DNA from: Sporosarcina sp. ANT_H38 | GTDB lineage: Bacteria; Bacillota; Bacilli; Bacillales_A; Planococcaceae | Assembly: GCF_008369195.1 (NCBI RefSeq) | Contig: NZ_VOBC01000001.1 | Location: forward strand, 124,001 to 188,000 | DNA: 64,000 bases | Direction: 5' to 3' | Shown here: positions 6,670 through 64,000 of the stretch, piece after piece | Layout: each line of letters starts with the position of its first letter | Numbering within the stretch: position 1 is the first letter of the stretch | Notes under the pieces: model-generated | What the model saw: the letters and a program-made list of their open reading frames with translations, nothing else | What the model was told of the DNA's origin: nothing | The model's database searches: none | Translations under genes and position numbers: made by a program

Positions 6670-6959
6670 TGAAAAGCAATGAAGAGGAAAAGTAAAATGA
6701 TGATGTCTTATAGAGAGCTTCTGTCGGTGGAAATGAAGCGGACTAATCGTTTGAACATGATCTCTGAGCTTCGTACTGAACGTGACTTCACTAGTAGGAT
6801 ACGACAAGATTTGACACTTGTTACAAATGTCAAAGTATAAAGGCAATCGCTCTTTGTACTTTTGGAGACAAGCAACGTGAGTTGTTTGTGCATACAAGGT
6901 GGTACCACGAGATTTAAACCTCGTCCTTATCGATTTTTTCGATGAGGGCGAGGTTTTTT
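6670..6959 (+). promoter_or_regulatory. T-box riboswitch, Met specifier, controlling the methionyl-tRNA synthetase gene
   Basis: The leader shows the AGAGAGCTTCTG start of stem I, a specifier region GAAC-ATG-ATCTCTGAGC with ATG (Met) at 6757-6759, and the T-box sequence AAGGTGGTACCACGA at 6896-6910. The last pairs with the uncharged tRNA acceptor end in the antiterminator. It ends in a strong terminator (6917-6959). The expected behaviour is transcription read-through into the synthetase gene when tRNA-Met is uncharged. Confidence 0.9.
6917..6959 (+). terminator. T-box regulatory terminator
   Basis: AACCTCG..ATCGA pairs with TCGAT..CGAGGTT across a short T loop, followed by TTTTTT. It competes with the antiterminator that contains the T-box sequence. 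Confidence 0.9.
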
Positions 6960-48571: not shown

Positions 48572-48835
48572 TAAAAAAAAGCCTTCCTCCCCTTACAAAT
48601 AAATGTAAGGGGCGAAAAGCTGAAATACTCACGCGGTACCACCCTTTTTACTGTCAGAAAAAATAGACAGTCTTGGTTAGCATGCTTAACGCGCATGTGA
48701 CGGATAAACCTACTAAACGTTTCAGTTTATCTATTCCGGAGTGCTACTTTACTGCGAAATCACTGATTTGCACCATCCATCAGCTCTCTTGAGATTTCAG
48801 TAGATAAAGTGTGTCTCCATCAAAATAGTTAGATT
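48572..48835 (-). promoter_or_regulatory. T-box riboswitch, Ser specifier, controlling the aminotransferase-serA operon
   Basis: On the minus strand: AGAGAGCTGATGG (start of stem I, near 48777-48790), specifier region GCAC-TCC-GGAATAG with TCC (Ser) at 48738-48740, T-box sequence AAGGGTGGTACCGCG at 48632-48646, and a terminator with stem TGTAAGGGG..CCCCTTACA at 48589-48612 ending in eight T at 48572-48580. Low charged tRNA-Ser should allow read-through. Confidence 0.9.
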
Positions 48836-57093: not shown

Positions 57094-57810
57094 TCTATTC
57101 AAATAAATCATCATTTTTTCTGGATAATCCGTGAAAATACCGGTAATACCAACTTTGTTCAGTGTTTCTACATACTTTTCTTCATTAACTGTGAAAACAC
57201 GAACAGCGACTCCGTCTTCTACCACATTTCTCATAGATGGACGGACAGCTGATGGTAATGAAATATGGAGTGCATCAGCAGGAATATTTCGTAAATAATT
57301 GAGTGGATCGACTAACACTTCCATGAACAAAGCGGCAGTTTCGATGTTTGGTGCAATTTTTTTTACTGTCTGAACTGCTTCGTGATCAAATGATGAAATA
57401 ACGGTACGTGCATCGAGCTTCATTTTCTGAACCATTGCAACAGCTTTCTCCGCCATCCCCTCGTAAGGAAAAATATCCGATTTTAGTTCGATATTCAGAT
57501 GGTGGGAAGTCTCGGAAAAAATTTCGAGCACTTCTTGTAATAACGGAATGGTTTCATCTTGAAATTCATCAGAAAACCAGCTACCAAAATCAAATGCCTT
57601 TAACTCTGCAAGTGTCATATCTTTTACGAAACCTGTGCTGTCGGATGTTCTAGCTATTGTTTCATCATGAATGACAACCAGCTCACCGTCTTTCGTCAAA
57701 TGAACGTCGAATTCTACTCCGTAAATGGGAAGACGGGCAGCTTCACGGAACGCTGCGAGTGTATTTTCTGGATGTGTTCCTGATGAACCGCGATGTGCGT
57801 AAATATTCAA
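57085..57810 (-). CDS. glycerophosphodiester phosphodiesterase
   Basis: GDPD-family enzyme of 241 aa, no signal peptide, so cytoplasmic (UgpQ-like). Motifs: AHRGSSGTHPENTLAAF at the start, EFDVHLTKDGELVVIHDE (metal Glu/Asp and catalytic His), and VRVFTVNEEK. It releases glycerol 3-phosphate from deacylated phospholipids. Confidence 0.92.
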   Translation of the reverse strand: MNIYAHRGSSGTHPENTLAAFREAARLPIYGVEFDVHLTKDGELVVIHDETIARTSDSTGFVKDMTLAELKAFDFGSWFSDEFQDETIPLLQEVLEIFSETSHHLNIELKSDIFPYEGMAEKAVAMVQKMKLDARTVISSFDHEAVQTVKKIAPNIETAALFMEVLVDPLNYLRNIPADALHISLPSAVRPSMRNVVEDGVAVRVFTVNEEKYVETLNKVGITGIFTDYPEKMMIYLNRKS

Positions 57811-57894
57811 ATCAAAACCACCTTCCTTTTCCTGTAATTGTAATACGGGATTTACATCAACACAATTTTAACTCAACAAAGAAATGAAATTGGA

Positions 57895-57926
57895 AAAGGG
57901 ATGCCCTCGATTGAGGACATCCCTTT
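57895..57926. terminator. bidirectional-looking hairpin terminator
   Basis: AAAGGGATG-CCTC gatt GAGG-CATCCCTTT. It lies between ypsA and the phosphodiesterase gene, both on the minus strand. Confidence 0.75.
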
Positions 57927-58031
57927 GTATTGTCAGGTAACACTATATTTTTGAATTTAATTTTTCATCCCGATATTTCGGGGAATAATTTCCATAGAAA
58001 GGATAAGCTTTCAGAGCCGCGGTCATTGTTC

Positions 58032-58108
58032 CACTGGGTGCTTTCTAACTTAAGCAACATAAACCCTGCCTACTTTTATGTCCTTGCGACCCTTTAGTCG
58101 CGCCAGTG
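58032..58108 (-). other. candidate structured RNA element
   Basis: Three nested or adjacent helices: an outer stem CACTGG (58032-58037) with CCAGTG (58103-58108), a hairpin ACATAAA/TTTATGT (58057-58063 with 58075-58081) and a hairpin GCGAC/GTCGC (58086-58090 with 58097-58101). It matches no riboswitch class I know. Strand is assumed from the flanking genes. Confidence 0.3.
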
Positions 58109-58227
58109 TGAATAAGTATTCTCAAAAACAGTACGTAGAATGCCAGATATTCAAATCTTAGCATTACCTTTTTGTTAATGAAGAAATCATACCATGTAGC
58201 TGCGGAAGTGTCAAGGAATTGGGAAAC

Positions 58228-58785
58228 TTATTGCCATTCATCCATTTGCTCTTCTTCCGCAATCACTTGTAAGTCGTCTGCAGAAATTGTTAGAACTTGA
58301 TAGTCGGAGCGTTCCGCATGCTTTTCGGCAGACTTTTTAACGAATCTGGGAGATCCATCATTTTCCTCATCGTAGACAATGAGCATTCCATCAGAATTGC
58401 GCATAAAAAACTTATCTTTTTCAATAAATTGCCAAGGAGCTTCATAGGGTCTTTTCGTAAGACTTGTATGATAATCGGCCCTTGTGATAATTGAATGATA
58501 CTTTTCCTTTTTCATATCGTTCCAATTTTTCTCTTGGTCTGTGAAAGGAGTAATAATGGCATATTTCAAATCCGTATATTCTTTTTTTAGGTCAATCACT
58601 ACCTCTGCCGCCCATGTTTCAATTCCTAGTTGGCCGCTTGTAATTACCCACTCCAACCCGTCATCCAGTAAGGCTACGAGCCGTTTTTCTAATGCTTTTT
58701 TTATAAATCGGACGCCTGGATGCTTGTCGTCAAAAATGCCGAGTTCATGGGGTTTATAACCCGTGACCACCAATCGTTTGAGAAT
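58228..58785 (-). CDS. ypsA: YpsA, SLOG/DUF1273-family protein
   Basis: Cytoplasmic Rossmann-like protein of about 185 aa matching YpsA, a protein linked to cell-division control in Bacillota: RLVVTGYKPHELGIFDDKHP, GLEWVITSGQLGIETWAAEV, and KRPYEAPWQFIEKDKFFMRN. The usual protein starts six residues before TGYKP. Here no ATG, GTG or TTG fits; AAGGGGG (58794-58800) is 8 nt before an ATT at 58785. The in-frame TTG at 58830 lies inside a terminator hairpin. I therefore take ATT 58785 as the start. gpsB, the usual downstream partner, is absent. Confidence 0.85.
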   Translation of the reverse strand: MLKRLVVTGYKPHELGIFDDKHPGVRFIKKALEKRLVALLDDGLEWVITSGQLGIETWAAEVVIDLKKEYTDLKYAIITPFTDQEKNWNDMKKEKYHSIITRADYHTSLTKRPYEAPWQFIEKDKFFMRNSDGMLIVYDEENDGSPRFVKKSAEKHAERSDYQVLTISADDLQVIAEEEQMDEWQ

Positions 58786-58812
58786 GATGTCCGCCCCCTT
58801 CGAATTTATAAT

Positions 58813-58845
58813 GAAAAAACTAGCTTCCAATGGAAACTAGTTTTG
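58813..58845 (-). terminator. probable original terminator of the 6S RNA gene
   Basis: ACTAG-TTCC..GGAA-CTAGT stem, followed by TTTTTT on the minus strand. It lies next to the left copy of the 56-bp repeat, so before insertion it would have followed the RNA gene. Confidence 0.75.
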
Positions 58846-58864
58846 TTAAAATTATTAAAATAAC

Positions 58865-58920
58865 AGCCGCCTTTGCCGTATGGTCTTAGAAAGTTTTAAA
58901 CCACCACTTCTCAAAGTGGG
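58865..58920. repeat. left 56-bp direct repeat (attL)
   Basis: Perfectly identical to 62859-62914. It begins AGCCGCCTTTGCCG and ends CTTCTCAAAGTGGG. The sequence is the 3' end of the small RNA gene on the minus strand. Confidence 0.88.
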
Positions 58921-59017
58921 GTTTGCATTGTATTTAATTATCAAAGACTATAAAGAAACGTGATATTAGCGCCTTTTCAAGTTCCTCTTCGCCTTACTTT
59001 AAAACCATTTCTAATGG

Positions 59018-59050
59018 TTTTACAACAATTTTTACAACAGATTTACAACA
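59018..59050 (+). repeat. left arm-type repeats (three TTTTACAACA-like 10-mers)
   Basis: TTTTACAACA at 59018-59027 and 59030-59039, ATTTACAACA at 59041-59050. The same 10-mer occurs three times near the right end. Likely arm-type binding sites for the integrase. Confidence 0.6.
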
Positions 59051-59054
59051 ATCA

Positions 59055-59226
59055 TCATTCTGTTGGAGGTCTTGGCTGGAATATACTCTCCATCTTGTCG
59101 CCAGCCGACCTGTTTGCAGACTCGAATACATGACCGTAGGTATTCATTGTAACAGAAATGTCAGAGTGCCCCAAGCGTTTAGAAATGACTTTGGCGTGTT
59201 CGCCTTGCGCTATTAATATACTTGCA
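59055..59226 (-). pseudogene. C-terminal fragment of a tyrosine recombinase (integrase)
   Basis: About 56 codons read SILIAQGEHAKVISKRLGHS then DISVTMNTYGHVFESANRSA and end QPRPPTE-stop. This is the end of the phage-integrase catalytic domain: His in LGH and the nucleophile Tyr in NTYGH are kept, the RHTHAS box and everything before are lost at a junction near 59226. It lies 135 bp inside the left repeat, where a functional int gene would be expected. Confidence 0.85.
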
Positions 59227-59294
59227 GGGGGGTGATTGGTTGGCTTTTTTGTGAGAACTGGGGCTCAAAGCTCAAATCTGAAAGGATGATGAAA

Positions 59295-59558
59295 ATGACA
59301 GCAATTCCAAAACCACCAAAATCAAAGGTTGTGGCAGGTCCGAAACTAACAGAGACTGATTTTCTCGAGTTAGGCGAGAGAATCGGTGAATCAAAAGAAT
59401 TCGGCGTAGAGGTAGAGGTTACGATATAAGCTCAAAAACGCTATGAGTCAGTTACGGGCGTCGTTAAAGAAGTTGAAGGTCAACAAGGTAAATTGACTAT
59501 GCAAGTTGGTTACGACAATATAAAAGTCAACATGAATAATATTGTGAGTGTGAAATGA
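59295..59558 (+). pseudogene. YolD-like gene interrupted by an in-frame TAA
   Basis: ATG 59295 (AAAGG 9 nt upstream) opens MTAIPKPPKSKVVAGPKLTE and runs to VEVEVTI, then TAA at 59427-59429. The same frame continues without a stop for 42 codons (AQKRYESVTGVVKEVEGQQG.. to ..NNIVSVK, TGA at 59556). The second half looks like the beta-strand tail of YolD-like proteins. Either a nonsense mutation or two short products. Confidence 0.65.
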
Positions 59559-59559
59559 G

Positions 59560-59898
59560 ATGTTAGAAAGTATTCGTGATCGAGGAACAAAAAAGTGGAC
59601 GGCTATGATGCTCTCGGAACACGTCAGAGAACTGCGTATATGGAAAGACAAAGATAATTACGAAGAACGTCCGCTACTTGATGATTTTGATTTGCAAGCT
59701 ATCCAGTATGAAATAGAAGTGGCATATAAAAGGAAATGCCTAACATTCGTGAAGTCGTGGGAAAATGGAAAAATTATTTTACACAGCGGAGTAATAAAAG
59801 AAATTGATGTGGAGTCAATGTGTATTACAATCTATGGCCCTTTTGGAAAGGATCGCATACTAGTTAAAGATATAATCGGAGTTCGGTGTGAGGAATAA
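59560..59898 (+). CDS. YolD-like family protein
   Basis: Protein of 112 aa with the YolD opening DRGTKKWTAMMLSEHVRELR, KDNYEERPLLDDFDLQ and a beta-rich tail. YolD proteins are coded by phages and integrative elements, usually behind a UvrX/ImuB-type Y-family polymerase gene; none is present here. The start is 1 nt after the stop of the previous frame and has only a weak ribosome binding site, so translation was probably coupled to it. Confidence 0.8.
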   Translation: MLESIRDRGTKKWTAMMLSEHVRELRIWKDKDNYEERPLLDDFDLQAIQYEIEVAYKRKCLTFVKSWENGKIILHSGVIKEIDVESMCITIYGPFGKDRILVKDIIGVRCEE

Positions 59899-59905
59899 AC
59901 AGGGA

Positions 59906-59941
59906 AAGGCGATCGCTCCGTAATGGAAGGGTCGCCTTTTC
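59906..59941 (+). terminator. terminator after the yolD-like genes
   Basis: AAAGGCGA..TCGCCTTTT, 8-bp stem, T run. Confidence 0.82.
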
Positions 59942-60085
59942 AATCTGATAACTTTCGACAGGATCAGATTGACTCTAATTTAGAACATGACTCATACATA
60001 AAATATAAAATATAAAGTAATTTGTCAACATTTAAAAATCTCCCGTTCCAAGTCGCTATTTTCTAGTATAACGGGTTTTTAAACA

Positions 60086-60133
60086 GAAAAAACCCCGAAT
60101 GGGTCACTTTTTTTAAGTGTCCACTATTCGGGG
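60086..60133 (-). terminator. terminator of the regulator/membrane-protein pair on the minus strand
   Basis: On the minus strand CCCCGAAT..ATTCGGGG is followed by TTTTTT. An inner ACACTT..AAGTG helix extends it. The gap 59942-60180 holds nothing else. Confidence 0.85.
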
Positions 60134-60180
60134 CTCAGTTCAATGAGAAGGTCGCTTTAATATTTACTATATTTTCTTTT

Positions 60181-60567
60181 CTAGTTCTGCAATTCGTTAT
60201 TATTTTTTACTTCTTTTTGATTGTATAAGAAAATTGCTGCTAAAAAAACCATAGCTACGTTAATTACAATGGCAACTATATTTAAAAAGTCATTTGTATT
60301 CATAAATACAATAATCAATGATGTTACTGCTACAAATAATGGAATTACCTTATTTGTGTTTGTGACTAGTTGTTGCTTGTGAAAATGTCTTAGTATGAAA
60401 TAAATACCTATTAAGATTGGTGCAGTAAGGAGTACTCCTAAATACCCCCATGCATCTTCAATAAACCAAGGGAAAAAGCGCATACGTGAAGTAAAGATAA
60501 AAAGATTCAGTATGATAGTTCCTACTAATAGACTGTTTAATATAATGACTTTCTTGTTTTTCTCCAT
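60181..60567 (-). CDS. four-helix membrane protein, element-borne
   Basis: Protein of 128 aa with four predicted spans and short charged ends (MEKNKK.., ..KEVKNNNELQN). No family recognised. It lies 23 nt downstream of the HTH regulator gene on the same strand, so the two probably form an operon; such regulator plus membrane-protein pairs are common on integrative elements. Confidence 0.6.
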   Translation of the reverse strand: MEKNKKVIILNSLLVGTIILNLFIFTSRMRFFPWFIEDAWGYLGVLLTAPILIGIYFILRHFHKQQLVTNTNKVIPLFVAVTSLIIVFMNTNDFLNIVAIVINVAMVFLAAIFLYNQKEVKNNNELQN

Positions 60568-60590
60568 TTTAGTTACTCCTTAAAATTTAT

Positions 60591-61046
60591 TTACTCATTA
60601 GTTAATTCGTGAAAACGATTCATGACTTCTTCTTTTTCTTCAAACGTGCTATACCAATGATAATCACTATCATCTAAAACACGAAAATGCTTACTAACCA
60701 CATTGTGTTGTACTCGAAACCTTCCTTTTTTCGCAATCTCATTCCAAAATATTATTCCACCTAATGTTTTTTCTTTTGGAGTATTCATACCATCGTGAGC
60801 TAGTGTTTCAATTACTTCAAAAGGTTCTTCCCCTAAAATATGTTTTAAGATTTGGCTATCCTTAAACAAAGCACAAACTACGACTGCATTCGTCCAACCA
60901 ATGGATGTTCTTTCTTTTTCAACTTGAACTAGTGTCTTTTTAGAAATCCCCAGAACAGTACCCATTCTTTCTTGAGAATATCCTTTTTCAAGACGAATCA
61001 GTCGAACATTCTTAGAAATCAAATCAATTACAATTTCTTTATTCAA
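60591..61046 (-). CDS. HTH-type (XRE family) transcriptional regulator
   Basis: Protein of 151 aa: N-terminal XRE helix-turn-helix NVRLIRLEKGYSQERMGTVL and GISKKTLVQVEKER, then an unassigned C-terminal domain of about 80 residues (GGIIFWNEIAKKGRFRVQ..DYHWYS). TTG 61046 is 7 nt after GGAGGG. A perfect 24-bp palindrome at 61076-61099, 30 bp upstream, is the likely operator for self-control. Confidence 0.78.
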   Translation of the reverse strand: MNKEIVIDLISKNVRLIRLEKGYSQERMGTVLGISKKTLVQVEKERTSIGWTNAVVVCALFKDSQILKHILGEEPFEVIETLAHDGMNTPKEKTLGGIIFWNEIAKKGRFRVQHNVVSKHFRVLDDSDYHWYSTFEEKEEVMNRFHELTNE

Positions 61047-61075
61047 ATAACATCCCTCCATAAATCGAAGTACAC

Positions 61076-61099
61076 TAATCGTGTAATATTACACGATTA
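61076..61099. promoter_or_regulatory. perfect 24-bp palindrome, probable operator of the XRE regulator
   Basis: TAATCGTGTAAT is followed immediately by its exact reverse complement (centre between 61087 and 61088). It lies between the minus-strand regulator and plus-strand sequence. Confidence 0.75.
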
Positions 61100-61125
61100 A
61101 GGACCGTTTATAAATAGAAAATATA

Positions 61126-61326
61126 GTGAGGAATATTTACATTAAAACTATAATAAACAGTCAAGTTGAAGCTCATAAAATATGGGCGGACAAAAACAAA
61201 GAGTATAGTAACTATTTTAAGTATCGATCTACAGCTCGTAGTTTCATTAGAAATAAGACTATGCTGTCAGAACATCTTGTGGAGCTTAGAAAATGGTTGA
61301 AGGAAGATAATTACGAAAAACGCTGA
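61126..61326 (+). pseudogene. truncated YolD-like fragment
   Basis: The last 23 codons (TMLSEHLVELRKWLKEDNYEKR-stop) match the start region of YolD proteins, as at 59580-59660, but the beta-strand half is missing. The upstream 43 codons are not recognised. It is the third YolD piece in the element. Confidence 0.55.
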
Positions 61327-61364
61327 TATATACCTATTGATACTTTTTTAAAAATACGTTAATG

Positions 61365-61396
61365 TGAAATCAACTTCACATGAAGCAAACTTCACT
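61365..61396. promoter_or_regulatory. tandem 16-bp operator-like repeats
   Basis: TGAAATCAACTTCACA (61365-61380) followed directly by TGAAGCAAACTTCACT (61381-61396). Each unit is itself a TGAA..TTCA inverted repeat. They lie 33 nt before the membrane-protein gene and are probably bound by the small XRE protein coded downstream. Confidence 0.6.
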
Positions 61397-61428
61397 TCGG
61401 GAGAATAAGTTAGTTAGGAGAGGTACAT

Positions 61429-61827
61429 TTGAAAAATCTATTCATACAGCGACTTCTAGTATCAACCTTACTTATGGTATTGGGGATCATTAAAATAATT
61501 CTCGATACATCAGTAGGATTTAATTTTGCTTATGTCGTGTTATTCATAGGTGGAATAATTTTGTTATATTCAATAATTGCTTACTTTAAATCCCGTAATA
61601 ACAAATTATTCGAAAAGGAAATGTCAAAGCAATATGACGAAAGAGATATTTTAATTGATGGAAAAGTTGCTCACTTTTCCTTGCATATTTTGTTATATGA
61701 AATTTTTATTATTATGTTTTTAACTAATTTTGTGGCAATCCAAACAAATATTGTGTTATTTATTGTTTTAATATCTTTAATAATTTGCGAATTTGGATCT
61801 AGAAAATACTATAATCATGTCCTTTAA
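61429..61827 (+). CDS. DUF2178-like membrane protein, element-borne
   Basis: Protein of 132 aa with four spans and a cytosolic loop KEMSKQYDERDILIDGKVAH like that of DUF2178 proteins (YDERD..I..KA..FS). Function unknown. Start TTG 61429 follows GGAGAGG. It lies 14 nt before the small XRE gene; such pairs form self-regulated modules. Confidence 0.65.
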   Translation: MKNLFIQRLLVSTLLMVLGIIKIILDTSVGFNFAYVVLFIGGIILLYSIIAYFKSRNNKLFEKEMSKQYDERDILIDGKVAHFSLHILLYEIFIIMFLTNFVAIQTNIVLFIVLISLIICEFGSRKYYNHVL

Positions 61828-61841
61828 TAATGGAGGGATTT

Positions 61842-62045
61842 ATGAGAAATAGAGTAAAAGAATTACGAGTGGAACATAGAATGACGCAACAAGAGTTAGC
61901 TGATAAAGTAAGTGTATCTTCAAGAACAATCATCTCATTAGAAAAACAAAAATATAATCCATCTTTAGTACTTGCATATAAAGTGGCTTCAGTTTTTAAT
62001 CTATCAATTGAAGAAACATTTATTTTTGATGAGGATGACAAATAA
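61842..62045 (+). CDS. small XRE-family regulator (67 aa)
   Basis: Stand-alone helix-turn-helix protein: NRVKELRVEHRMTQQELADK, VSVSSRTIISLEKQKYNPSL and FNLSIEETFIFDEDDK, the common ~68-aa form. GGAGGG is 5-6 nt before ATG 61842. It likely binds the tandem repeats at 61365-61396. Confidence 0.88.
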   Translation: MRNRVKELRVEHRMTQQELADKVSVSSRTIISLEKQKYNPSLVLAYKVASVFNLSIEETFIFDEDDK

Positions 62046-62093
62046 TACAATTCATAAAAATGCACATATAAAATAAACAACGGAGGAATGTAA

Positions 62094-62300
62094 ATGCTTA
62101 TTATATTACTTATTTTTGGGGTAGTTTTAACGGTTTGGGGTCTTTATCGTATGAGAACAGACGATGGTTTATTTGGGAAAAATCGAAAAACTAAAAACAT
62201 ATTCAATTTAATACTGATGGGACAAGCTTCAGGTTTAGGACAATTTTTGAGCGGAGTCTTATGTATGATAATATGGATTATCTCATTTTTTATTAAGTAG
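62094..62300 (+). CDS. small two-helix membrane protein
   Basis: Protein of 68 aa with two spans separated by a basic loop (RMRTDDGLFGKNRKTKN). CGGAGGAATG gives a strong ribosome binding site. Third gene of the small XRE operon. Family not recognised. Confidence 0.6.
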   Translation: MLIILLIFGVVLTVWGLYRMRTDDGLFGKNRKTKNIFNLILMGQASGLGQFLSGVLCMIIWIISFFIK

Positions 62301-62392
62301 TAACACGAATGAAATCACATATGCAAACAGGGTCATTAGTGCAACAATAAAATAGTTAGTTGTTGTAGTAAATAGAATCATTTGTAGTACAA

Positions 62393-62442
62393 AAAGGGTA
62401 GATAGAGCATATATTTTATTTGCTCATCTATCCTTTCGTTTT
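62393..62442 (+). terminator. terminator of the small XRE operon
   Basis: AAAGGGTAGAT-GAGC..GCTC-ATCTATCCTTT with a T-rich tail. Confidence 0.7.
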
Positions 62443-62664
62443 ATATACTGCTGGTCATTCAATAGAACCTAAAGATAGAAACAAGAGTGGCTATGCAATA
62501 CCCTGAATATTGGAAATGGTATATGGACTGGTGGACGTTGATGCTATGCTCGAATTGGGTGATGTTAAGTTCAATGACTTGGTACAAATAAATGTTTATT
62601 GTTCAGCGTGTAAATCTAAAGATAAATTTGAACAGCACTTATGCTTATAATTTAAGAGACTGTA

Positions 62665-62708
62665 AAAACAGCCACCTTCTATTAAACAGAAGAGTGGCTG
62701 TTTTCGTT
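62665..62708. terminator. strong hairpin terminator inside the element
   Basis: AAAACAGCCA..TGGCTGTTTT, 10-bp perfect outer stem. Confidence 0.82.
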
Positions 62709-62751
62709 TATTTGTTGTTATATGTAAGGGGTTTGTTTGCTCGATAAGAAT

Positions 62752-62789
62752 TTTTACAACAGTTTTACAACAACGCTATTTTTACAACA
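62752..62789 (+). repeat. right arm-type repeats (three TTTTACAACA 10-mers)
   Basis: Exact TTTTACAACA at 62752-62761, 62763-62772 and 62780-62789, the same orientation and motif as near the left end. Confidence 0.6.
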
Positions 62790-62820
62790 AAAAAGCACCA
62801 CCCAATTAAGGATGATGCTT
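62788..62820 (-). terminator. element-supplied terminator for the 6S RNA gene
   Basis: On the minus strand AAGCA-CA-CC ttaatt GG-TG-TGCTT is followed by TTTTTT. After insertion this replaces the original terminator at 58813-58845. Confidence 0.7.
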
Positions 62821-62858
62821 GATTGTAAACCATTGGTATATATGGCTTTGTAAAGCAT

Positions 62859-62914
62859 AGCCGCCTTTGCCGTATGGTCTTAGAAAGTTTTAAACCACCA
62901 CTTCTCAAAGTGGG
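62859..62914. repeat. right 56-bp direct repeat (attR)
   Basis: Identical to 58865-58920. This copy is joined to the promoter part of the RNA gene and so restores its 3' end. Confidence 0.88.
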
Positions 62915-63044
62915 TGTTCGCAGAAACAATCCTGTATGTCCCGGTTATCGAAAGAACTGGGTATGCCATTCCTGTTTCTAGGTAAAACTCCCGATTACAG
63001 ATTAAAGGTTAAAACTTAATGGGTATACGCACAACGCAGCTTGT
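62859..63044 (-). ncRNA. ssrS: 6S RNA
   Basis: About 186 nt, the usual 6S length. The RNA ends pair: GCTGC..CGTAT at the 5' end (63025-63040) with ATACG..GGCGGC at the 3' end. Internal landmarks typical of Bacillota 6S are TTTTAACCTTT, CCGGGACATAC, TTTCTGCGAACACCCAC and GGTTTAAAACTTTCTAAG. A canonical promoter is placed exactly upstream. 6S RNA binds the main RNA polymerase holoenzyme in stationary phase. Its last 56 nt are the attachment site of the element. Identification is by remembered consensus, not by a covariance search. Confidence 0.72.
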
Positions 63045-63050
63045 AAATAT

Positions 63051-63079
63051 AGTGTACATCATCTGCTTCATATTTTCAA
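63051..63079 (-). promoter_or_regulatory. sigma-A promoter of the 6S RNA gene
   Basis: On the minus strand TTGAAA (63079-63074), a 17-bp spacer and TACACT (63056-63051), giving a start near 63044. Confidence 0.7.
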
Positions 63080-63190
63080 ATGAAATTGTTGGAAACCTAT
63101 TATGAAATTCTTTAATTGTTTCCGTGTCAGGTAACGCTACAACGTTTATAATAGTTAAGTAAAGAATTTAATTAAAAAAGGAGAATAAGT

Positions 63191-63670
63191 ATGACAGGGA
63201 AGACACACATCTTAGGCGGTATTACTGCAAGTCTTGCCTATGCACAATTTACAAATCATGATCCGATTATCATGCTTGGGGCAGGGGTGATTGGCGCTTT
63301 GCTTCCTGATATTTGCCATAGTGGCAGTAAAGTTGGAAGGAAATTACCTCTGTTATCGAAACTGATTAATATGGTATTTGGACATCGTACATTTACGCAC
63401 AGTTTATTGTTCCTAGTGATTGTTGCCACTTTATTGAATTCATTCGTTCCTAATGAAGCCTTGAAGGCAGGTTTTTTGGCTGGAATGGTAAGTCATTACG
63501 TATTAGATATGGCGACTAAAAACGGCATTAAACTGCTTTACCCATTGAGCATGACAGTTCGCTTTCCATTGACGACAAGAACTGGTGGCGCGGTAGAAAA
63601 CATTGTGTTCAGTATTTTAGCGCTTTTATCATTCTATTTCGGCTATGAAGCGTTCAGTTTTTATCTTTAA
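63191..63670 (+). CDS. YdjM-like metal-dependent membrane hydrolase (DUF457)
   Basis: Inner-membrane protein of 159 aa with the family features MTGKTHILGGITAS, GALLPDICHSGSKVG, FGHRTFTHSL (HRxxTHS, metal-binding) and SHYVLDMATKNGIKLLYP (HxxxD). Role unknown; relatives are sometimes LexA-controlled. AAAAGGAG precedes the ATG. Confidence 0.85.
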   Translation: MTGKTHILGGITASLAYAQFTNHDPIIMLGAGVIGALLPDICHSGSKVGRKLPLLSKLINMVFGHRTFTHSLLFLVIVATLLNSFVPNEALKAGFLAGMVSHYVLDMATKNGIKLLYPLSMTVRFPLTTRTGGAVENIVFSILALLSFYFGYEAFSFYL

Positions 63671-63751
63671 CTGAAGTTGGTTTTGAAAAAATTGATGTCA
63701 TATCGCTCTTTTTGCTGGAATGGAAAGGGTGAAAGAGAGGAAGCATAAAAA

Positions 63752-64000
63752 ATGGCAATACAAAAATTTAAAAAAACGGTCTTATTTGAATATATTCAAA
63801 TCATATTTGGAGCTGCACTCGTCGGTTTAGCTTTCAATATTTTCCTGTTACCGTCTAGGCTAGCTGCAGGCGGAGTTTCTGGAATTAGTACGATACTCTA
63901 TGAACTTTTCCAATTCAATCCGGCTTACGTACAGTGGCTCATTAATATTCCGCTATTAATACTTGGGGTCTTGCTAGTCGGCAAGGAATTCAGTATGAAA
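63752..64000 (+). CDS. YitT-family membrane protein (partial, cut by the window end)
   Basis: The first 83 codons read MAIQKFKKTVLFEYIQIIFG and on to LVGLAFNIFLLPSRLAAGGV-SGIS, the conserved start of YitT/DUF161 proteins (NIFLxPxxLAxGGVxG). The rest lies outside the window. AGAGAGG lies about 9 nt upstream of the ATG. Confidence 0.87.
   Translation, partial: MAIQKFKKTVLFEYIQIIFGAALVGLAFNIFLLPSRLAAGGVSGISTILYELFQFNPAYVQWLINIPLLILGVLLVGKEFSMK

Follow-up and report, generated by a model that had tools for sequence, protein, structure and literature searches.

We analyzed a 64,000-nucleotide stretch of DNA from Sporosarcina sp. ANT_H38 (contig NZ_VOBC01000001.1, positions 124,001 to 188,000; hereafter the window), in which the 3' end of a 6S RNA gene is found a second time at a distance of about 4 kb. 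The gene (62854-63045, minus strand) matches the full Rfam model RF00013 (positions 1-187) with a covariance score of 73.4 bits, above the curated gathering score of 46.4. Its 3' end is one copy of a perfect 56-bp direct repeat, which is the sole exact repeat of at least 30 bp when both strands of the window are scanned. Next to the distal copy lies what is left of a tyrosine integrase gene, whose NTYGH region we take to hold the catalytic tyrosine. The original prediction had proposed an integrative element with a 6S RNA 3' end as its attachment site, with a perfect 56-bp repeat bracketing about 4 kb, an integrase stub at one end, and a new terminator brought in while the old one was left behind; each of these features was recovered with its coordinates, both terminators appearing as hairpins on folding, and the interpretation itself is supported: the covariance match and the single-copy junction in relatives, whose absence would have spoken against it, are both present. 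The features concerned, where att denotes an attachment site, are the following:

62854..63045, minus strand: 6S RNA gene (RF00013), its 3' end presumably rebuilt by the element
62859..62914, minus strand: 6S-side att copy (56-bp repeat), the restored 6S 3' end
58865..58920, minus strand: distal att copy, the host 6S 3' end moved away by the insertion; where the site is empty, it runs on into the host flank
58921..62858, no strand: inserted element body; 3,994 bp from copy to copy, counting one 56-bp copy
59055..59225, minus strand: open reading frame (ORF) of the tyrosine integrase C-terminal stub, 56 codons and stop
59018..59051, minus strand: left putative arm-type direct repeats, three TGTTGTAAA units in the minus-strand reading
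62750..62789, minus strand: right putative arm-type direct repeats: three TGTTGTAAAA units, of which two are spaced by 11 bp
62793..62820, minus strand: element-borne terminator of the rebuilt 6S gene, hairpin and T-run, -15.9 kcal/mol
58817..58843, minus strand: old host terminator severed from 6S, hairpin and T-run, -13.3 kcal/mol, which follows 6S in empty sites

A direct repeat equal to the 6S 3' end stands at both borders, as is expected of an element inserted in a structural RNA gene. The TGTTGTAAA repeats lie between the stub and the core, and they occur again past the new terminator at the opposite end. The old and the new tail give the same predicted 6S fold, since the closing stem is contained in the core.

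The clearest view of the insertion comes from relatives in which the site is empty. Our comparison of 52 loci identified three genomes (G036, G020, and G037) with one 56-bp copy, which closes the left flank and at the same time opens the right one, and in which 58921..62858 is absent from the same site; this is the single-copy junction that the original prediction had anticipated. At the empty junction, the host 6S gene runs through a single core into the old tail GTTATTTTAATAATT, which is followed by the old terminator. In G036 the flanks are continuous on both sides (57372-58927 and 62859-64000). Both G020 and G037 have a single-copy junction and extra DNA about 290 bp inside the right flank (~0.33 kb and ~0.28 kb, respectively), with a further ~0.1 kb between the terminator and ypsA in G037.

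Further searches used a genus set of 68 genomes and a family set of 261 genomes, an order-wide search giving the same 261; the genus names used for relatives are inferred ones. Of the 68 genus genomes, 67 gave a match to the 6S gene. The genome of the window (G000) also contains a second 6S gene (G000:C1:732500, 98 bits) whose 3' end differs in sequence, the window gene having the lower score. Pairs of complete 6S genes, in direct tandem and ~260 bp apart, were observed in G022, G021, and G035 (L004, L005, and L007), which are close relatives, and 3-5 matches to the window-type 6S gene per genome were observed in G058 (L039), G019 (L040-L042), G045 (L045), and G067 (L037/L046), some of which may be the other paralogue. 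No PF00589 domain was found near the multi-copy 6S matches of these last four genomes among the matches listed; the idea that these copies are element-borne was therefore set aside.

Detached 6S 3' fragments were identified within the genus in G000, G053, and G047; those of G067 and G009 are weaker. Full integrases lie beside the fragment in G053 (402 residues) and G047 (393 residues), and they are 73% identical to each other. A related integrase at an expectation value (E) ≤1e-90 occurs in 16 of the 261 family genomes; two loci, L062 and L063, look the same as G047:C30 and G106:C64 and were counted once. All 12 integrases with at least 60% identity to the query P0002, whose own copy is included and which span three genera, are followed by a 6S 3' fragment, whose start lies 137-161 bp past the stop codon; this is the outcome of the search for recombinases beside this sequence that the original prediction had suggested. 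A tyrosine integrase is adjacent to the border in every case, as a stub in the window and at full length in the 12 sisters (PF00589 was present in both of those tested). The stub of the window shares 64-82% identity with these 12 6S-site integrases and 36-60% with other relatives.

The more distant integrases served as controls. Those of G192 and G193 (56% identity) run into GGTTCGAGACCAGTCGGGACCA, which we read as a transfer RNA (tRNA) 3' end, and no whole tRNA was identified in these loci by ARAGORN; those of G023 and G014 (52 and 47%) lie upstream of a tRNA-Ala gene, at ~0.2 and ~1.2 kb, respectively. Each of these four genomes (47-56%) has one 6S 3' end, which is located on a different contig or at a distance of 1.2 Mb from the integrase. 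A class-wide search of 398 genomes gave matches in three: G014, together with G281 (two copies) and G599 at 48% identity; two of these three G281 and G599 copies have tRNA genes just downstream, and the third (L137) has no tRNA in its locus. In a tree that left out L067 and L068 (weak viral matches, 22%) and L061 (a 36% integrase), the 12 6S-site integrases fall on one side of a split. Extra 3' ends are also seen in Lysinibacillus, where the 64-nt query is matched from its first base in all 32 genomes; 15 of them hold an additional copy that starts later, as the displaced fragment does. Six of these 15 genomes have no integrase among the relatives at E ≤1e-90. One of them, G094, contains a second mini-element of ~2.8 kb with an integrase stub of 48 residues.

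The layout of the sister elements repeats that of the window. Both ends are present on one contig in nine genomes (G053, G101, G103, G107, G115, G118, G120, G121, and G126), and in all nine the upstream sequence contains a full 6S gene in the same orientation, with 12.8-50.7 kb from repeat to repeat; the ends are on separate contigs in G096 and G106, and the 6S side of G047 was not found. In the 11 genomes whose borders were both compared, the shared block is 55-139 bp long and starts with TTTGAG (TTGGAG in G126), and the target is the lower-scoring 6S locus in all 11, as in G000. The 6S gene of L085 scored 74.6 bits in this comparison and was missing from a later covariance search, most likely because of its filters. 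All 12 elements (the 11 and that of G094) have on their 6S side a pair of arm-like repeats, spaced by 11 bp, at a near-constant distance from the core, and so does the window; a terminator precedes these arms in 10 of the 12, and in the window too. It is important to consider that the arm patterns were drawn from these same sequences, so that the result describes the elements and does not test them blindly. In G101, G115, G120, and G096 the displaced fragment, too, is followed by arms, with single ones in G106 and G094, which suggests older elements at the same site.

Two further observations concern occupancy of the site. In G002, G052, and G038 (L011, L012, and L024) there are arm-like repeats after the 6S terminator, yet no second 6S fragment is listed, which looks like the scar of a lost element. 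The G118 assembly holds an empty 6S site on a 5.5-Mb contig and a prophage in the same site on a 47.6-kb contig (L105-L107); since 11 substitutions and 24 gap columns separate the occupied from the empty flanks over 3.1 kb, a mixture of strains or an error of assembly would account for this just as well as excision.

The nature of the sister elements was approached by scanning five of the 12, each in part. Tail sheath, tape measure, portal, terminase, and major head proteins were identified in G053 (10 proteins); terminase, head, sheath, and tape measure in G120 (6 proteins); and terminase, head, portal, and tape measure in G126 (4 proteins). G101 has a repressor, an excisionase-like protein, and a primase, and G103 has an integrase, a repressor, and a primase/helicase; no excisionase was matched in G103 at 1e-5, and no virion gene was found among the 8 proteins of G101 and the 12 of G103 that were compared with PHROGs. 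Of the five elements, three have virion genes, therefore, and two look satellite-like (G101 and G103). The G101 element also contains an AAA_15 ATPase gene beside a 328-residue partner (L120:9694-12533), which is perhaps a phage-defence pair.

Based on this evidence, the insertion in the window is very probably what remains of an element of temperate-phage or phage-satellite type, with a tyrosine integrase that uses the 6S 3' end as its bacterial attachment site (attB). According to the proposed mechanism, the phage attachment site (attP) would hold a copy of the last ~56 bp of 6S, that is, the 3' strand of the closing stem, followed by its own terminator and then by tandem arm-type sites, with further arm sites between the core and the integrase gene. 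Recombination at the core would join the 5' part of the host 6S gene to the 3' part and new terminator of the element, by which the gene is rebuilt, and the host 3' end with its old terminator would be displaced to the far end, next to the integrase gene. The window element would later have lost its integrase gene except for the last 56 codons, and probably most of its body. Within this scheme we infer that the integrases catalyse the reaction, that the repeats serve as arm sites, where the crossover falls, and that the rebuilt gene yields a working RNA. The arm-type repeats, the loss of most of the integrase, the decay of the window copy, and the range of its sisters, which include prophages and satellite-like islands, go beyond what the original prediction had described.

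The sequence itself shows the repeat, the 6S gene, the empty sites, the stub, the putative arm repeats, the terminators, and the sisters with full integrases. Several points weigh against this interpretation. Past the 56 bp, the tail is ATGCTTT in the rebuilt gene versus GTTATTT in the old one, and therefore the ends of the transcript may change. The split that sets the 12 6S-site integrases apart has moderate support (0.72), one fragment (that of G094) was characterized among the six Lysinibacillus genomes with an extra copy and no related integrase, and no terminator was found on the 6S side of two of the 12 elements (G115 and G096). In addition, the element body may not be the original one, its cargo matching other places in the genus.

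This last point can be followed in the contents of the element, which are listed here with the host genes that flank it (HTH, helix-turn-helix; IS, insertion sequence):

58228..58830, minus strand: ypsA, host flank (PF06908, E 6.4e-69)
59560..59898, plus strand: YolD-like cargo (PF08863, E 2.5e-15)
60029..60144, no strand: multi-copy repeat, probably an IS end, which recurs in several genomes and near contig starts
60181..60567, minus strand: cargo ORF with no family match above the cut-off (ORF list)
60591..61061, minus strand: cargo HTH protein (PF01381, E 5.6e-5)
61126..61326, plus strand: cargo phrog_2277-like small protein (E 4.8e-13)
61429..61827, plus strand: cargo ORF with no family match (ORF list, family scans)
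61830..62045, plus strand: cargo Cro/C1-type HTH regulator (PF01381, E 2.5e-12; phrog_3)
63191..63670, plus strand: YdjM-family membrane protein, host flank (PF04307, E 9.6e-36)

Pieces of the cargo match in 28 of the 68 genus genomes, that of the window included; because of these matches and of the multi-copy repeat, we consider the body a mosaic relic. No virion gene was identified among the 8 ORFs of the window scanned against phage families. Elsewhere in the window, a BsrC Rfam match (62.9 bits, 58044-58131) lies just past ypsA, and there are two T-box leaders (6670-6931, plus strand, and 48605-48832, minus strand).

Other origins for this locus were also considered. Segmental duplication, or homologous recombination between 6S copies, would yield a repeat with no need of an integrase, and the genus does contain tandem full-length 6S genes (G021, G022, and G035, with three copies in G058) that have no tyrosine integrase nearby among the matches listed; however, only the 3' 56 bp are repeated in the window, the far flank is the single-copy junction of three relatives, the stub and the arm repeats are placed as in the family, and the same layout occurs in 11 other genomes, which makes this origin extremely unlikely. 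The lack of virion genes among the 8 ORFs would also be expected if the element were the remnant of an integrative conjugative element and not derived from a phage or satellite. This is quite improbable, given the virion genes of three sisters and the repressor and primase module of two others among the five of 12 scanned in part.

A different question is whether the window element would be able to move. It might be cis-mobilisable, that is, an element without an integrase whose att sites and arms remain in place and which is moved in trans by the integrase of a related phage; the perfect 56-bp repeat, the arm repeats on both sides, and the second small element in G094 favor this possibility, to which we grant some weight while regarding it as unlikely, since no related integrase at E ≤1e-40 is found in the genome of the window and the mosaic cargo bears an IS-like scar. 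We conclude that the window element, read as derived from a phage or satellite, is a decayed or integrase-less remnant.

The use of 6S genes might extend beyond this family. The ssrS gene has been named as a top prophage neighbor in Acinetobacter baumannii, in a passage that is worded as "adjacent to" and gives no att site (PMC11998280). As a query we used an Acinetobacter ssrS gene (RF00013, 113.7 bits) from a record labelled Acinetobacter phage MD-2021a. The MD-2021a records (L138, CAKLQF020000025.1; L140, CAKLQH020000022.1) carry housekeeping genes such as lon, pepP, and ygfA over the parts that were read. They appear to be chromosomal and mislabelled and served only as a source of ssrS. 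Phage Ab1656-2, which was obtained by mitomycin C induction (PMC8473069), matches the 3' end of that ssrS with 93.5% identity over 77 bp, and includes an identical block that we count as 58 bp, 52 of them within the 6S covariance match. The block lies 125 bp upstream of a recombinase gene whose product has the Pfam integrase and arm-binding domains and is similar to the 6S-site integrases over 35 residues only; the core precedes the recombinase gene in Ab1656-2 and follows it in the family described here. The terms 6S RNA, ssrS, attL, attP, and integrase are absent from the main text of PMC8473069.

In Escherichia coli, the 3' 63 nt of ssrS occur once per genome in 5,375 of the 5,426 genomes, namely those with a match, and there was no sign of 6S att use by megablast, a search that reveals only fragments with an exact 28-base word in common. 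The Sporosarcina 6S gene had no match in 50,697 phage records. Two Salmonella records were set aside, one being a 2.3-kb unverified clone and the other a 691-kb bacterial record. Given the clade described here and the very different integrase of Ab1656-2, 6S genes seem to be a recurrent attB, apparently reached twice, and the Acinetobacter phage looks like an independent parallel outside the clade.

Among structural RNA genes, the usual landing sites of mobile DNA are tRNA and transfer-messenger RNA (tmRNA) genes. The elements described here resemble the genomic islands and prophages of those genes, as far as the Islander account presents them (PMC4383910), in having a terminal tyrosine integrase, a repeat that is the 3' end of a structural RNA, a rebuilt gene, and a displaced fragment at the far end; they differ in their 6S target and, in most of them, in a terminator located between the core and the arms. 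They share with the A. baumannii prophages beside ssrS the role of 6S as a prophage hotspot, but the portion of that report concerned gives no att site (PMC11998280), whereas Ab1656-2 offers a 58-bp 6S identity together with an integrase barely related to ours.

Two other types of element invite comparison. Phage-inducible chromosomal islands are satellites with integrase, repressor, and primase-type genes. The elements of G101 (12.8 kb) and G103 (14.3 kb), known here from their genes, are like them in having an integrase, a repressor, and a primase/helicase, to which G101 adds the excisionase-like protein, and they differ in their 6S target. Cis-mobilisable elements have att sites at both ends and no working integrase; the window element, seen here through its sequence only, is alike in retaining both att sites with no complete or working integrase. 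In PMC titles and abstract starts, we found no report of a 6S gene as attB among the matches listed, subscription papers, preprints, and supplements being outside this search.

As the sequences indicate, the mechanism would be ordinary tyrosine-integrase insertion into a structural RNA gene, with a target that is unusual and appears to be used by a whole clade. It seems doubtful to us that the 6S 3' end is a widely used and repeatedly evolved phage att site across phyla, where lysogens swap in their own 6S tail and terminator and so tune or read out a growth-phase regulator of the host RNA polymerase. Our study nevertheless ties a clade of phage integrases, in three genera, to the gene of an RNA polymerase regulator, and raises the question of whether lysogeny changes the output of 6S. 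The elements at this site offer a natural set of chimeric 6S genes, and the specificity of their integrases may be of use as a tool.

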